From IMG/VR virus record IMGVR_UViG_3300042398_000969, positions 62,001 through 126,000 of that record: 64,000 bases of DNA. One strand, 5' to 3'. The DNA is from a virus. The notes under the pieces are model-generated. The model saw only the letters and a program-made list of their open reading frames with translations, was not told the DNA's origin and did no database searches. The translations under genes and the position numbers were made by a program. Positions 3,545 to 62,122 of the stretch are shown here, piece by piece (positions within the stretch are counted from its first letter, which is position 1; each line of letters opens with the position of its first letter).

Positions 3545-4126
3545 TTAACTAATTAAATAACCACAAAATAATGTGTAACTACCATAAAGACGGCCAATAT
3601 TTCCACCCCAATAAGGAATAATACTAGCATAGTCACCAACACCTAAATTAAATATTGCTGACATGTTTATACCATCTGAGTGATTCGCCAATTCTCCATG
3701 ACCATAGATATTATATGGTGTTCTACCATTGTTCCATGTAACATTACCATTTCTAGCCAATTGATAATGAATATAACCTGAGGTACTATTACTATCAATA
3801 TTATAATACGTTGAGGTATGAAAATAATAATTTCCAGCAACGGGTGCCGTGTATCTACCAGTAGATGTACTAAAACCATAAGACCCCGCACCTTGTTGAG
3901 TTACTCCCCATCCCATTGGTGAACCTAATTCTCTCCAAGCACCTCCTCCACCGAAAGATGCTGGATACAACCAAGCACCACTTCCATTTGCATGAAATGC
4001 GGGTTGAACACCTATCGTTGTTTTATAAGTTGATGGCAAAAAAAGGTTATTCGATATGGCCAATTGACCACCCGCACCAGTTATTTGATTTGCCTCATAT
4101 GTTGTACCACCTAAATAAATTGGCAT
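3545..4126 (-). CDS. C1q-like tail-fibre tip protein 2
   Basis: A 193-aa paralogue of the preceding protein. The N-terminal MPIYLGGTTYEANQI block probably attaches it to the virion, and the C-terminal jelly-roll has STGRYTAPVAGNYYFHTSTYY, GYIHYQLARNG, a GDYASIIPYWG strand and a terminal LFCGYL strand. Long stretches around GRTPYNIYGHGELANH are almost the same as in tip protein 1, while the loop regions differ, as expected for receptor-facing loops. Its ATG overlaps the stop of the small helical gene at 4126 as TAATG. Two bases separate its stop from tip protein 1. Confidence 0.65.
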   Translation of the reverse strand: MPIYLGGTTYEANQITGAGGQLAISNNLFLPSTYKTTIGVQPAFHANGSGAWLYPASFGGGGAWRELGSPMGWGVTQQGAGSYGFSTSTGRYTAPVAGNYYFHTSTYYNIDSNSTSGYIHYQLARNGNVTWNNGRTPYNIYGHGELANHSDGINMSAIFNLGVGDYASIIPYWGGNIGRLYGSYTLFCGYLIS

Positions 4127-37736: not shown

Positions 37737-38225
37737 TTAATTAGTTTTTCTAGTATTCATCATTTCATTAACCACATCTTCGAATGTGTGTTGAAACTTA
37801 TTTAACTTCTCAATTATTACCGTTGTTTCGTCATTTAACATTAACATGTCAGAATTGATATATATACCTCTATCTTCTCCAGCAATAAACACAAACCCTA
37901 AGTCTTCGCTTATTGATCCGTCTAATCTAATGCTGTTTGTGTATATATTAAATCCCTCCTCAAACGTAGCTATTTCACTAACCTGAGTTTTAAAGTTCTC
38001 AATTAATTGGTTTAGGGCATTCTTTTCCTCATCACTAATATTAAGATCTTCTTGATCAGCGCTGTGGACTTTGATTTCAACATTATTGTTTAGAACTAAA
38101 TTGTTTACTTTCTCTTCTTCTTCTTCTTTTAGGGTTGCTTTTGATGCTGTATTTTCGTTAAGGGTTCTCATTGTATTGAGCATCCTTTTTATACCATCAT
38201 ATCCTAGATTCTGCTTGTTTGACAT
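37737..38225 (-). CDS. Conserved hypothetical protein (162 aa)
   Basis: The N-terminus ([24 protein letters not shown]) is an amphipathic helix, followed by an acidic linker and an alpha/beta region with VFIAGEDRGIYINSDML. An in-frame TTG at 38234 would add three residues; the ATG at 38225 was preferred. Its first 29 bp overlap the end of the amidase-like gene. Function unknown. Confidence 0.6.
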   Translation of the reverse strand: MSNKQNLGYDGIKRMLNTMRTLNENTASKATLKEEEEEKVNNLVLNNNVEIKVHSADQEDLNISDEEKNALNQLIENFKTQVSEIATFEEGFNIYTNSIRLDGSISEDLGFVFIAGEDRGIYINSDMLMLNDETTVIIEKLNKFQHTFEDVVNEMMNTRKTN

Positions 38226-38811
38226 TTTCTTCAAATATATTAAAATTAAACGAAGGGTTTATATCTGTATAAATATCAAAGAAATTCGATTTACTGACTA
38301 TTCCATCAATGTTTTTTGCGTTTTCGATATACCCAGACGATGGTACGCAACGATATGTTATGCTGTAATTGATACATAATACGAAACAAAGCTCCGCTAA
38401 TGCGTTTAATTGGGCTTCTGTGTACACATCCCAGTAAAAGTAACCCCTCCATCCTCTGATGTGCGGGGTGCCCCTAAATGGATCGTTAATCCAATTATTG
38501 TATATTCCTGTGATTGTGTTTCTATTAAGCCATCCAAGGTTCTCGACGGCTATTTTGATTTGCTTTCGATCTATACTAGTGTTGTCAAAAGTAGTTGAAC
38601 TATATTCGGGCTCCAGTATTTTATAAATCTTACCAGCTTTTGTAATGCAAAAATGAGGGATGTCATCATAATTCCCATTTCTTCTATATTTTAACATTTT
38701 AATGAAATCATCATACTTTCTTTTAGTATCATATAAAAGGATCTGTGATTTCTTATATTTTTTTCTTTTTGTATTCGGTTTAAAAGCTTCTGCGTCTAGA
38801 ATTTCTAACAT
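38197..38811 (-). CDS. N-acetylmuramoyl-L-alanine amidase-like endolysin
   Basis: The 204-aa region from the ATG at 38811 resembles a diverged amidase_2 / PGRP domain: [16 protein letters not shown] as the first metal-site strand, [10 protein letters not shown] as the second conserved strand, a [22 protein letters not shown] segment matching the 'W.G...PYT..Q..AL..L' helix, and CINYSIT as the strand after it. Such enzymes cleave the amide between N-acetylmuramic acid and L-alanine in peptidoglycan at lysis. The second metal ligands are not certain. The reading frame stays open upstream to 38892 but lacks a better ATG. An adjacent Pro-Thr-rich frame leads into it and may be its true N-terminus (see the entry at 38783-39019). 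Confidence 0.65.
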
Positions 38812-39019
38812 TTCTTTGTATTGTTTTGTAACCACCAATAATAATTCTTGGTGTGTCCCCAACAAAAGGTGTTGGTTCTGGCGTTTCAGTTAGTGTAGGC
38901 GTCGGTGAGGGTGTCTCGGTTGGTAATATTGTGCTTGTTGGCTCCGGAGTACTAGTTGGTGTACTTGTTGGAGTTTCCGTGGGTAAAGGAGTTTCTGTAG
39001 GTGTGGGACTCGTTATGAT
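38783..39019 (-). other. Start-less Pro-Thr-rich frame reachable by a -1 shift on A10
   Basis: From an A10 run (coding strand, 39028-39019) to a TAA at 38782 an open frame of about 79 codons reads [20 protein letters not shown]... then [20 protein letters not shown] and a short basic end. It is bounded upstream by a TGA in the same frame directly before TTTAAAAAAAAAA and has no ATG, GTG or TTG before the Pro-Thr stretch. The only entry is a -1 slip from the 414-aa membrane-protein gene, whose own stop follows the A-run by one codon. Its Pro-Thr composition matches the linkers of six virion proteins in this window, so it is very likely translated. A +1 change in the following ACAAAAC region would run into the amidase frame as [13 protein letters not shown]. 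Confidence 0.6.
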
Positions 39020-40257
39020 TTTTTTTTTAAATCATCTTCTTCTTGATCTTGTTCTACTTCTTCATAAAGGTGGTCTCTCCAAAAACTATCGTCGGTATTT
39101 TCAGATACAGGTTCTTCAACCTTTTCATCAAAATACTCCTTAACTGATTCATCAATATTATATTTTTCTACTTCCTCTGGTGTTGCAAATGGTTCTGGAA
39201 CTACCCCATCAAACTCCTCATTCATATCTAAATCTCTTTCATATTCCTGTTGGTTCATTTCCATTATTTCTTCATCAGATAATGATGGAATATATTCTTC
39301 CTGGAAAATATTTGTTGGTTCGGGAGTTATAGTGGAAAAATTTTGTTGAATTTCTTCTTCTGTTGGTTCTTGTTGTAAAATATTTTCTATTTCTTCGTCA
39401 GTAAAAAATGGCGGTTCGTCTTCTAAACCATCCATGAGTGTAACGTCCCAATCAGAAACATCTTCTTTATCTTCTTTAATTAACGGATTATCAAATGGTT
39501 CATTATATAGACCTAGCTCTTCATCATTCTTCATCATCTCAGCCAATAGTTCACCACGTTTTTCACGTTCAGCATCAAAATCATTGATGTGGGTATGTTT
39601 CTCTCTTACTTCATCACTGTATCTTTGTGCAGCTTGTTTTAACGCTTCATTTGGTGGATTTGGATTCAACAAATGCTTTTCTAAAATCTCTAAATCGTTT
39701 TGTGATAATTTTAATCTATTAGTTTCATCAGCAATATCTGCAGATGGAACATTATCTTGAATCTTTTTATCTATATTATCTCCTTTAAGTCTGTCTTCTT
39801 CTGTAAACTGAACTAGCATGTGAAGAAAAGAAAGTGAAATTATTGGTAACATACCACCAGCAAAAAATGCTAGAAATCTTTTATGACCTACAAAATCAGT
39901 TGGATCAACTCCCATGAATTCAACAAATGGTGAAACTAATCCAACCCAATCTTTAAATGATTGAGCATTTATATCAATATATGAATAGGCAAAATATATA
40001 TTACCTATAAATTGAACAATGGTTACAATAGCAAACGGGAAATAAACTTTCTTACCCATATTTGCTGATATTGCAGCTAATGCTGATAATGCAGCTATCT
40101 CAATACCAATAGACAAATATATCGACCAGCTAACTGGATTAGATATACCATACCATTTAGTAACGTGCGAGATAGAAACAATTGCCACGGTAATGATCGG
40201 AACCAAGAACGCGGCAATTATTAATGTCTTATAATTTTTTTCTAACCAATTTTTCAT
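39013..40257 (-). CDS. Multi-pass membrane protein with acidic tail (414 aa)
   Basis: The N-terminal 150 residues have four probable transmembrane helices: [59 protein letters not shown] and [21 protein letters not shown]. The remaining 260 residues are acidic and probably cytoplasmic or periplasmic, ending EEDDLKKKS at an A10 tract. Start overlaps the stop of the 97-aa gene as ATGA. The topology would suit a holin-like or virion-associated envelope protein, but I do not recognise the family. The terminal A-run creates a frameshift opportunity into a Pro-Thr-rich extension. Confidence 0.65.
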
Positions 40258-44327: not shown

Positions 44328-44999
44328 CTATTTCTTTTTAACTATCTCATCAATGATACCATAAGCTAGAGCATCGTCTGCTGATAACCATAAGTCTCTA
44401 GATGCATCTTGTTTTACTTGTTCTCCAGATTTACCACAATATTCACCCAATAAGTCAAATAAAATATTATTTAACTTCTCCCACTCAATCATATCAATCT
44501 TAGCGTCTTGAATGTTACCTCTAAATCCACCAGAAGATTGGTGTAACATAGTTCTTGAGAATCTCAATGATCCACGTTTACCTTTCGTTCCTGCACCCAA
44601 CAAGATTGAACCCATAGATGCTGCCATACCTGTATTAATAGTTCTAATATCAGACTTAATATATGCCATAACATCAACCATAGATAAACCAGATTTAACT
44701 GATCCGCCAGGACTATCAATATGCATTGTAATATCATTATTATCTAAACTATCCAAGAACATTAACTGAGCTTGTACAACAGTTGACATGTGATCATTAA
44801 CTTCTCCAGCAACCCAAATGATTCTTTCCATCATTAATCTACTGAATACATCCATCACCGTTACATTTAAACTTCTTTCTTCAAGAATGTATGGTGTTAA
44901 ACTGCTTTCAATACTTTTATTGAAATTGTGGATGTTTAAGGAGCTTACTCCAAAGTCTTTTGCGTAAAGACCGAAATCTTTGTAATCTTTAGGTGTCAT
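44328..44999 (-). CDS. clpP: ClpP-like serine protease
   Basis: A 223-aa ClpP. With the ATG at 44999 the catalytic triad is Ser128 (TGMAASMGS), His153 (TMLHQSSGG) and Asp202 (ASRDLWLS). The block SSLTPYILEERSLNVTVMDVFSRLMMERI closely follows Bacteroidota ClpP, including the extended N-terminal segment, which points to acquisition from such a host. ClpP forms a tetradecameric proteolytic barrel that works with ClpX- or ClpA-type unfoldases; none is seen in the window, so it may use host ClpX or process virion proteins. An in-frame TTG at 45020 is a less likely start. It is followed by a terminator. Confidence 0.93.
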   Translation of the reverse strand: MTPKDYKDFGLYAKDFGVSSLNIHNFNKSIESSLTPYILEERSLNVTVMDVFSRLMMERIIWVAGEVNDHMSTVVQAQLMFLDSLDNNDITMHIDSPGGSVKSGLSMVDVMAYIKSDIRTINTGMAASMGSILLGAGTKGKRGSLRFSRTMLHQSSGGFRGNIQDAKIDMIEWEKLNNILFDLLGEYCGKSGEQVKQDASRDLWLSADDALAYGIIDEIVKKK

Positions 45000-45041
45000 A
45001 TCTATTAATTGTTTAAGCAAATATAATTAATGTTTTCCAAA

Positions 45042-57973: not shown

Positions 57974-57994
57974 TCTGTTTATTTTGTTTTTTTT

Positions 57995-60900
57995 TTATAC
58001 TTGTGCACCACCGCCGCCACCAAGACAATCATTACATGATGTCCATACACTTGAATATGATCCATCCGTTAAATGTGTCGCCTCTTGATCACATGTAGTA
58101 CCAACATAATAATCTACTTGTAAGCACACATTATTTACTTTAACAGCTTTAGTTCCACCTAAGAATGCACTAACCAATAAATCTGGTGATGTCATATATC
58201 CAACTAGATTATTTGAACAATTAATTACTTGATATTTGTAATATGATGCTGGTTCAGGTATCGCTGTTATACCACTGTTTACCACACAACCATTTGCGTC
58301 TGTAACCTCTAAACAATACCCATATGTTGTTAAATTATCTACATTGAATGTTGTACCAAAAGTTGATGTGCTATATGTTCCAACTAAAGTTCCACCACAT
58401 GTTGTATATGGTGAACTTGTGTCAGCATATAATCTATATGTTTTAGGGAATACACCACCACTTGATGTTAATTCTAAAACACCTGAGCTTGGTGAAGCAC
58501 ATGTTGGGTATGTAATAATTGTTAACGACGCAGATTGTGCCGTTGGTTGGCTAATTCCTTGACCATATGATGCCACACAATTATTACCATCTTTAACAGA
58601 TATTGTATACGTATCTGATATTAAATTATTAAATATCTTTGGAGGATAATAATAATTGTAACCATCAATTGAAACTTGTCTAGGTGATGTTCCGCCAACT
58701 AATGTTGTCACTTCAATAAAACCATTTGAACCACCATAACAAGAAACATTACCAACATCCACTATTCCAAGCGCTGGTGTAGATACTGTTAAGTTATATG
58801 ATACAATTGCAAAACAACTATTATTATCTAAAACTTGTATTGAATGATTACCACTTGGTAAGTTATTAAAAGTATGTGAAAATTTAAATGCTGTTAACGC
58901 TGAATATGAACCACCATTACTACTAATACAAAATTTATATCCTGAAGCATTTGGTGTTCCACCGCTACCCTGAATTGTTAATGATCCATTTGTTGAATTG
59001 TAACAAGTTGGAAAAGATGCACTAGTAATAGTGCCAGCCACCGCTGACGGTATAGTTACGGTTGCTGAATATGATTGTTCACAACCGGCACCATCTTTAA
59101 TAAAAATACTATATGTACCGCCACCTAATGATGAATAAGTTACTGGTAAGTTTGCATATGTTCCACCAGAGCCAAGTTTTGCTTGATAACCAGACCCAGA
59201 TCCTCCAGATCCACTAGAAACACCAATGGTGCCTGTTCCCGCATTACAATCTGGATTTGTAACAGATATTGTTGCATTCGGAGCTGATTTGGATAATAAC
59301 ACATAATCTATGGCCACACAACCATTACTGTCTTTAGCATATAAAGTATATAATCCTGTACCTAAACTACTAAAAGTTCCGCTGGCTTGATAATTTGAAC
59401 CATCTCTTGAATATGTAAAACCACCCACACCGCCTGAACCTGAAGCTGTTATTGAACCATTTGTACCATTCCAACATGTTGGATTTGTACCAGATACTGA
59501 TATAGATACCGCACTTGGTTGTGTTACTGTTTGATTATATGTTTGAACACAACCCGCGCCGTCTTTAATATATATTGTGTATGTTCCCGCAGATAATGGG
59601 TTGGAGTATGTAACTGGTAAATTTGCATAAGTTCCACCTACTCCGTTTTTAGCTTGGTATCCTGAACCACTTCCTCCAGTTCCATCACTAACCGTGATTG
59701 CACCTGTTCCACCACCATTACAAGCTACATTTGTAATTGAAAAAGTTGCATTAGGTGCTGATTTAGATAAAGTTGTTGCCGCTGAAGTTACACAGTCATT
59801 TGCATCCTTAATATAAATTGTTTTAGTCCCAACGGTTTGCCCAGTAAATGTTGCACTAGATTGATATGTTAAACCATCTGAAGAATATGTGTATGGTGAT
59901 GTACCACCTGTAGGAGATGCTGTAACGCTACCATCACTACCATTATAACATGTTGGATTTGTTGATGAAGATATTGAACCAAAAAGTTGTGTTGGCTCTG
60001 TTATTGTTACAGAATATGTTCTAGAACAAGCAGATTGATCAATAACAGTTACTGTGTATGTTCCAGCAGTTGGTACACCAAACGTTGCTGGTAAATTCTG
60101 ATATTGAAATGCACCATAATTTACTTTTGCTTGATATGTTCCACCGTTACCACCACTACCATTTGAAATTGTTATTGAACCGCCTCCATTTTGATAACAT
60201 GGTAAATTTGTTTGTGAAATAGTTGCACTTACTTGTGTTTTATTTAAACCGGTTGTATTTGTTCTAATACATCCACTAGCATCTTTAACATATGTGGTAT
60301 ATGTACCATTTGTTAAACCTGTAAATGTTAAACCAGATTGATAATTTGAACCATCTATTGAATATGTATATGGCGAAACACCACCACTTACACTAGATAA
60401 TGTTATTGAACCGTTTGAATTACCATTACAAGTTGGTTCTGTACCTGTAGCAGTGAAACTAATAATTGCAGGTTCTGTTATCGTTAATGATGTTAATTGA
60501 CCAACTTCATTATTTGAATCTTTAACATATAATGAATATGTTTGTGCTGTTAAACCTGTAAATACGTTACTTGATTGATAGGTAGTACCATTTATTGAAT
60601 ATGTATAACTACCTGAACCACCACTTGGACTAGTTATTGTTATTGTACCATTAGATCCTCCATTACATGTAACATTTGTTGAAGATCTAGATGCTGTTAT
60701 AACAACATTGGTTATATTGATAGTTATAACCACATCAAAATATAAACCTAAAGCATCAGTTGATCTAACTTTAATTAGATATGTACTTTTTGTTTCATAA
60801 TCAAATACTACTTTAGATTTTAAAACATTTCCAGCAATAGTAAAACTAGTATAATCTGGATATGATGAAGTATCTACAAATGAATATGTAAAAGTATCAC

Positions 60901-62122
60901 CCGCATCAGGATCTGCTGTTGAAAAAGTACCAATTGTTGTACCAGTTGCAACATTTTCAGATATTGAAGATGATGATAAATCAATTCCTGTTGGAGCCTC
61001 ATTAACACTAGTTACGGTAACTGAAACAAGACCATCATATGTTAATCCACCAGCATCTGTTGTTCTTATATTTAATAGATACGAACTTTTTGTTTCAACA
61101 TCGAAAACTTCTTTTGATGTTAATTGACCGCCAGAACTTAAATTAAAACTATTATTGTCTGGATATGAACCAGTATTAACAAATGAATATGTAAATGTAT
61201 CACCGGCATCTGGATCTAACGTTGATAGTGTACCAGCGTTTGTACCAATTCCACTATTCTCAGGTATTGTGCCAGATATGCTAATACCAAATGGTGCTTC
61301 ATTTACGTTATCAATATAAATTGTAAATTGTTTATCAAAGAATTGACCAACACTATCGGTAGTACGAATTGCCACTGTATATGAAGTTCCTGTTTCATAG
61401 TTAAATAATATTGAGTTAACTAAAGTATTACCACTAGTAGTGAAAGGTGCAGAATTTACTATAGAATATGTATGGGCATCATTACTATCACTTGACGCTG
61501 TTGCTAAATAACCAATCACCGTACCAATAGCTGAATTTTCGTTTATTCTATCATAACTTAATGAAAGATCTGTTGGTGCATAATTAACTGTTGTATCAAT
61601 TAAAAATAAACAATTAGGTGTTGAAGTTGGACTCGGTGTTGGCGTCGCTGTTGATGTCGGTGATGGTGTTGGTGTAGGTGTGGCGGTTGAACTCGGTGTT
61701 GGAGTTGGTGTTGCTGTTATAATATTTGTATCTATTCCAAAATCACAATTAGGTGTTGGAGTAGGACTAGGTGTAGGACTAGGACTTGGAGTTGGACTTG
61801 GAGTTGGACTTGGTGATGGACTTGGAGTTGGTGTTGGACTCGTTGTTGGAGTTGGTGTAGGTAATATAGTTTCATCAATATTTGATTGACATTCTGCAAT
61901 AACCCTAGCATTTGTATTGTATACAATTATTTTAGTTGCACTATCTGGTACACTAACGTGTAAACCTAAATTTGATATTAATTCAGTGCGTGTAACACCA
62001 CTAGCAAGAAATGATGTATCAAAATTGGTTGCAAGATTTGCAGCGTTAACTTGGTCATAATAAACATTATAAGGACCCGCGTCAGTACCAGAAACAATCT
62101 TTACATAAAACTTCTTTGCCAT
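57995..62122 (-). CDS. Giant adhesin with cadherin-like and SprB repeats (1375 aa)
   Basis: The N-terminal 80 residues are the attachment domain shared with the 191-aa adhesin. Pro-Thr-Ser linkers with two Cys cassettes ([23 protein letters not shown]) occupy about residues 88-175. Residues about 175-485 hold three cadherin-like repeats ([45 protein letters not shown]). About ten SprB-type repeats follow to about 1285, each with C.GGSNGxIT...GGxxxYTYSxDGxxY...F..L..GTYTxYVKDxxGC. The end is a small Cys-containing domain and a GGGGG tail. SprB repeats occur in gliding-motility and cell-surface adhesins of flavobacteria, so this looks like a captured host module. Calcium binding by the DPDAGD loops is likely. 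Confidence 0.8.
58267..60664 (-). repeat. About ten SprB-type repeats in DNA
   Basis: The coding region for the SprB-type array, about 240 bp per unit and diverged between units. Limits are approximate. Confidence 0.7.
60667..61600 (-). repeat. Three cadherin-like repeats in DNA
   Basis: Approximate limits of the three cadherin-like units of about 100 codons; the second and third are most alike ([14 protein letters not shown] and [14 protein letters not shown]). Confidence 0.65.
61600..61861 (-). repeat. Pro-Thr linker repeats in the 1375-aa adhesin
   Basis: A short copy of the same linker-plus-cassette plan as at 62895-63905, with two cassettes. Confidence 0.65.

Follow-up and report, generated by a model that had tools for sequence, protein, structure and literature searches.

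A conserved run of about ten A's in a phage membrane-protein gene as a probable programmed one-base slip site

Does a run of A's at the end of a phage membrane-protein gene give one gene two products of different length? The question is raised by the window, by which we mean the whole 64,000-nucleotide stretch analyzed here (positions 62,001 to 126,000 of IMG/VR virus record IMGVR_UViG_3300042398_000969). The membrane-protein gene (39013..40257, minus strand) encodes 414 aa in its short, 0-frame form. Its 3' end reads GAT TTA AAA AAA AAA TCA TAA, with the stop TAA at 39013-39015. An earlier note on this DNA had given the same reading, and the run indeed holds exactly ten A's (39019..39028, minus strand). 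The note had also reported a TGA before the run and a start-less frame beyond it, and both are there. The TGA immediately precedes the A10 run in the -1 frame, and no ATG, GTG or TTG occurs anywhere in the window's -1 frame, so that frame has no independent start. Past the run, it forms an extension (38780..39019, minus strand) made of a Pro-Thr linker and a conserved basic end. The note had described this frame as free of stops. It is open for 80 codons, but its stop, TAA at 38780-38782, falls 32 nt into the downstream amidase-fold gene. The predicted long product has 413 + 79 = 492 aa.

We consider it highly probable that the run is the site of a programmed one-base slip, which would make a minority product with an extra C-terminal tail. 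The majority of products of this phage inner-membrane protein gene would end a few codons past the run of about ten A's, at 414 aa in the window. A minority would continue in the -1 frame, after the ribosome slips back one base on A_AAA_AAA or RNA polymerase inserts one additional A, and would carry the extra tail, for 492 aa in the window. The amidase-fold protein would be a separate product, translated from an ATG of its own, with its gene overlapping the extension.

The earlier note had proposed more than this. It suggested two slips that join membrane protein, linker and amidase-fold protein into one product of about 690 aa, and in the window the amidase-fold ORF is indeed in phase with the membrane gene, as the note had stated. 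However, the amidase-fold gene (38197..38811, minus strand; 204 aa; Pfam Amidase_2) shares 32 nt with the extension and begins at a normal ATG of its own, at 38811; the listed TTG at 38865 is only an upstream in-frame codon. Across relatives, this ORF starts at the same point, nearly always with ATG, and the extension terminates near that start. No relative is fused to the amidase-fold protein, and the second junction has no conserved slip site. Given where the extension stops and where the amidase-fold protein starts, a -1 slip gives the 492-aa product and not an amidase fusion. The second slip is therefore rejected, and we hold the larger fusion to be extremely unlikely.

Using the amidase-fold protein and the membrane domain as queries, we scanned IMG/VR and obtained about 140 loci, of which 60 distinct regions, the window included, hold both genes. 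The N-terminal membrane domain of the window protein, termed type I here, is conserved (39778..40257, minus strand; mean column identity of 84% in the 36-member alignment A3). A run of A9 to A11 lies within 22 nt of the 0-frame stop in 48 of the 60 regions. The run is A9 in 2 of these slip-type loci, A10 in 36 and A11 in 10, and it is 7 or 8 in none. The open continuation is the -1 frame in all 48, with a length of 34 to 152 codons. Most extensions terminate 32 to 38 nt inside the amidase-fold gene, with RNVxN(S/T)xRR or a similar sequence; in several relatives of either membrane-domain type (L010, L011, L048, L091, L095, L108, L110 and L142), the extension stop precedes the amidase-fold start. 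Both run and extension are missing from seven short relatives (236 to 266 aa), whose C terminus is KKVLSYLRRDA or similar, and L160 is divergent among the 60. The Pro-Thr linker that the earlier note had emphasized is present in the window and in some clades, but linkers range from Pro-Thr to acidic across relatives. Many extensions contain the motif LYWExDDxNPNQVIYDLENN, with YWExDDxNPNQVIYDLENN in the acidic-extension clades, and the extension motifs are absent from every other gene of the fetched loci. The family occurs in large, mostly uncultured phages, and in dozens of relatives the membrane gene ends with the run of about ten A's. Annotated phages gave one distant membrane-domain match only, in the 462-kb uncultured phage LR756500, and bacterial genomes gave no homologue of the type-I membrane domain.

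The extension has the marks of a coding sequence. When shuffled, the window extension stays open in 1.75% of cases (median of 0.4% over the 48 loci), and the other two frames of the extensions average about 6 and 8 stops. Differences at codon positions 1, 2 and 3 of the -1 frame number 80, 124 and 187 over 13 disjoint pairs (P = 2e-9), with the third-position excess weak or nil in several clades. For the window extension, the counts are 6/6/22 against L002 (P = 2e-4) and 8/7/21 against L003 (P = 2e-3). Comparison shows an extension that evolves as protein-coding sequence. The run also stands out. In each of 31 lineages, the lysine triplets of the slip site are written in A alone, whereas 10 of 117 KKK tracts in other long ORFs of the loci are likewise free of AAG (Fisher P = 1e-23); some of the 117 tracts are redundant, and internal runs of the fused relatives may be among them. 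Runs of at least nine A's are rare: they occur at six sites in the whole 169-kb record, and 34 such runs other than the slip site occur in 504 kb of loci. By these sequence comparisons, the -1 slip organization is beyond what chance would be expected to give.

The second coding-strand A10 of the window (57987-57996, minus strand) lies at the stop of a 1375-aa SprB-repeat/cadherin protein.

In four type-I relatives (L009, L033, L034 and L046), the tail reads into the extension without a shift, and the A10 is kept. A slip at the A10 of these genes leads to an early stop and thus to the short form. The four are scattered, adjoining slip-type relatives, in a joint two-gene tree in which several deep nodes are weak. 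Their fusions, like those of two type-II relatives described below, end at the stop after RNVxN..RRxFR, short of the amidase-fold protein. Because the fused relatives keep the A10 slip site, both short and long forms are possible in either arrangement. Comparison thus shows an A-run that is maintained even where the default form has been swapped.

In 17 further distinct variants, including loci L108, L109, L110, L116, L117, L120, L122, L125, L126, L142, L149 and L153, the tail, run, extension and amidase-fold gene are the same but the N-terminal membrane domain is another one, termed type II here. The type-II domain bears a long coiled-coil-like loop, and homology between it and the type-I domain was not detected (hhalign probability, 0.5 per cent). 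Fourteen of the variants need -1, two are fused (L117 and L132), and one, L111, is a run-length variant: it has A10, and the closely related L110 and L112 have A11 (about position 3777-3790). Read in the 0 frame, L111 has another C terminus, of about 29 aa; its extension would need +1 and is thus beyond a -1 slip. Run length can therefore change, and replication slippage is a possible contributor. Relatives of the type-II domain are found among hypothetical proteins of huge phages and of cultured phages that infect Flavobacterium (immuto), Pelagibacter, Stenotrophomonas and Xanthomonas. In immuto, annotated chitinase and holin genes precede the gene for this domain by about 2 kb, and in Mosig its neighbor is a putative glucosaminidase. 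The tail motifs WDVTxxDGLxxE and DEDHxLDxVMNDM of family members, e.g., L019, also occur in the immuto protein immuto35A_85 (L171:3426-4571), which has no A-run near its end.

The relatives include unfused and fused arrangements, with 48 type-I loci (the window included) and 14 type-II variants needing -1 and four type-I and two type-II members fused to the extension. This comparison strongly supports the earlier note's proposal that a -1 slip joins the membrane protein to the Pro-Thr frame. The note had also offered two assembly indels as an alternative, and the site is a homopolymer, where sequencing or assembly errors could be suspected. However, the same organization is found in 48 distinct type-I sequences and in many independent assemblies, and an identical copy, with A10 in all, is present in 12 assemblies from 12 different metagenomes. 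The alternative is refuted, and we give such indels virtually no weight. The run might instead be a mutable switch, with one state per genome rather than two products. Homopolymers do mutate, fused relatives exist, and the close relatives L110/L112 and L111 are in different states. Against such phase variation, the states are not random: among type-I lineages, 31 need -1, 4 are fused and 0 need +1 (P = 1e-12 if the three states were equally likely). The A10 persists in fused relatives, and an identical background with two run lengths was not found among type-I loci. We consider phase variation unlikely.

Short gaps and overlaps are common in phages, and the -1 frame could be a separate small gene that uses a nonstandard start or reinitiation after the membrane-protein stop. 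The window frame speaks against this with its lack of ATG, GTG or TTG and with the in-frame stop that adjoins the run upstream, as do the natural in-frame fusions, and a separate gene is very unlikely. Several relatives do have ATG, GTG or TTG within the extension frame, and internal starts may be possible in those. The conserved run, the constant direction, the protein-like extension and the recurrence on type II together make sequencing error, chance and random phase variation unlikely. The programmed slip remains our preferred reading, and the slip family is well supported by comparison, which shows the run, the shift direction and a coding extension. We infer the occurrence of the slip in the cell, its efficiency and the importance of the ratio of the two forms.

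Either the RNA polymerase or the ribosome could make the programmed slip. Slippage by the polymerase, in which A11 mRNAs would give the long form, has in our view about an even chance. The run is 9 to 11 long and never 7 or 8, though 7 A's are enough for ribosomal -1 slippage. Stimulatory RNA structure downstream of the run was sought in 15 loci, where z ranged from -2.3 to +1.0 and no common structure was found. Such structure is typical of ribosomal shifts but not obligatory, and it is not defining for poly-A slippage. A9 to A10 is the length of transcriptional realignment in Thermus dnaX and of that proposed for Chlorobium-type dnaX (PMC3711429), and the A11 of tssM slips in transcription at 20 to 25% (PMC4256274). 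Yet the slip-type type-I relatives always need -1, and the rule of the GeneTack study, that one shift direction favors ribosomal frameshifting (PMC3711429), reads this as ribosomal.

Programmed -1 ribosomal frameshifting on A_AAA_AAA is a serious possibility, somewhat short of even. The shift has a single direction in all 48 slip-type loci, and the window context, U_UUA_AAA_AAA, is a classic slippery string. Ribosomal sliding on iterated AAA codons is described in PMC4363877. However, the downstream structure is absent, the run is longer than a ribosome needs, and the base preceding the run and its codon phase vary between loci. Thus, the run length fits transcriptional slippage, and the single direction, by the GeneTack rule, fits ribosomal -1 slippage. 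Polymerase and ribosome may both act.

An AF2 model of low confidence (pLDDT 70) gives the membrane protein an N-terminal domain of about four transmembrane helices followed by a long acidic tail. A fold search with this model found nothing significant. By the positive-inside rule, the tail is probably cytoplasmic. The TacA1 antitoxin profile (PF08681) matches, with its C-terminal half, a segment of the acidic tail (39616..39738, minus strand; 22.5 bits against a cut-off of 21), and 27 of 37 family members match it as well (best E, 4e-8). This TacA1-like segment could bind GNAT-type toxins, or it could merely mimic such a segment. Weak Pfam matches of the type-I domain to NapE, TssN and holin were set aside as chance. 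In gene order, a sigma factor and a small membrane protein lie upstream of the membrane gene, and the amidase-fold gene lies downstream. The gene does not fit a tail assembly chaperone of the gpG/gpGT kind, which is a small tail gene beside the tape measure and has no membrane domain: it encodes a membrane protein between the sigma factor region and the amidase-fold gene and has no tail family match.

The amidase-fold protein is a clear member of its fold. PF01510 is matched by 71 of 71 members, and the AF2 model (pLDDT 89) has Foldseek matches to AmpD/LysC/PGRP and phage amidases at E of about 1e-5. Sequence searches of solved structures with this protein and with the membrane domain gave no significant match. 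The zinc ligands of Amidase_2 are His, His and Asp/Cys. At what are presumably the AmpD ligand positions, mapped by sequence pattern, the first residue is Asp in 64 of 71 members and His in 7, the second is Lys/Arg in 71 of 71, and the third is Asp in 71 of 71. The window protein has Asp and Lys at two of the three positions, and so it appears to lack two of three zinc ligands. These non-His residues make an active zinc enzyme doubtful. The seven short relatives without the A-run keep His at the first position. Annotated phages yielded no amidase-fold homologue, and bacterial genomes yielded one contig, L170 (RFNS01000300.1), from an alphaproteobacterial MAG. This locus has the same gene order, in the short arrangement without a terminal A-run, and is probably a misbinned phage fragment.

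The doubtful zinc enzyme, the membrane helices and the gene context suggest, with low confidence, a membrane complex of two protein lengths that would act at the cell envelope. Tentatively, the two forms might co-assemble in the host inner membrane, where only some subunits, those of the minor long form, would have the additional cytoplasmic tail with which to bind a partner in late steps related to the envelope or cell wall. We suggest, as a speculative possibility, that tail, A10 slip and extension could form a transferable module on two unrelated membrane domains. It would build a two-length inner-membrane complex with a stoichiometry set by slippage, as in tssM, and its default form would have been swapped several times with both forms kept.

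The closest analogue is poly-A slippage in tssM, where the slip makes the long form in one of two genes, tssM1 of Citrobacter rodentium and tssM3 of Yersinia pseudotuberculosis, and the short form in the other (PMC4256274). The likeness includes an inner-membrane gene, an A-run near a premature stop, two lengths, and a swap like that between the window and its fused relatives. However, tssM is a bacterial secretion-system gene with slippage proven by experiment, whereas here the gene is from a phage, the shift is shown by comparison, and the sequences are not known to be related. Known phage slippage concerns tail chaperones and capsid or tail proteins (PMC5009743). In the gpG/gpGT tail assembly chaperones of lambda and other tailed phages, a -1 shift likewise adds a C-terminal domain to a minority product (PMC5009743), but these are not membrane proteins and have their own slip site and neighbors (tape measure). 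The capsid and tail extensions of T3, A2, A118 and PSA are also optional and C-terminal, made by a shift or in frame in relatives (PMC5009743). Those belong to virion proteins and often have Ig-like domains, whereas here a membrane-protein tail without a known domain is extended. The dnaX genes of Thermus and Chlorobium-type bacteria share A9 to A10 runs and two protein lengths (PMC3711429) but encode a cellular DNA polymerase subunit. The downstream protein has the same fold as Amidase_2/AmpD/PGRP, but two of three canonical zinc positions are not His in the slip clade.

We found no report of this slip-site membrane-protein family in the literature searched. With it, a membrane-protein family of phages would join the genes that depend on slippage to express a conserved C-terminal domain; the phage cases in the review are mainly virion or assembly proteins. 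Gene callers would overlook the extension wherever this arrangement occurs. Natural switches of the default between the short and the long form offer a ready comparative test of whether selection keeps two length forms.

Elsewhere in the window, the head maturation protease (44328-45020, minus strand) is 62.5% identical to that of LR745206, a 635-kb uncultured huge phage, and about 46% identical to those of Lak megaphages. These identities place the 169-kb record probably near the huge phages.
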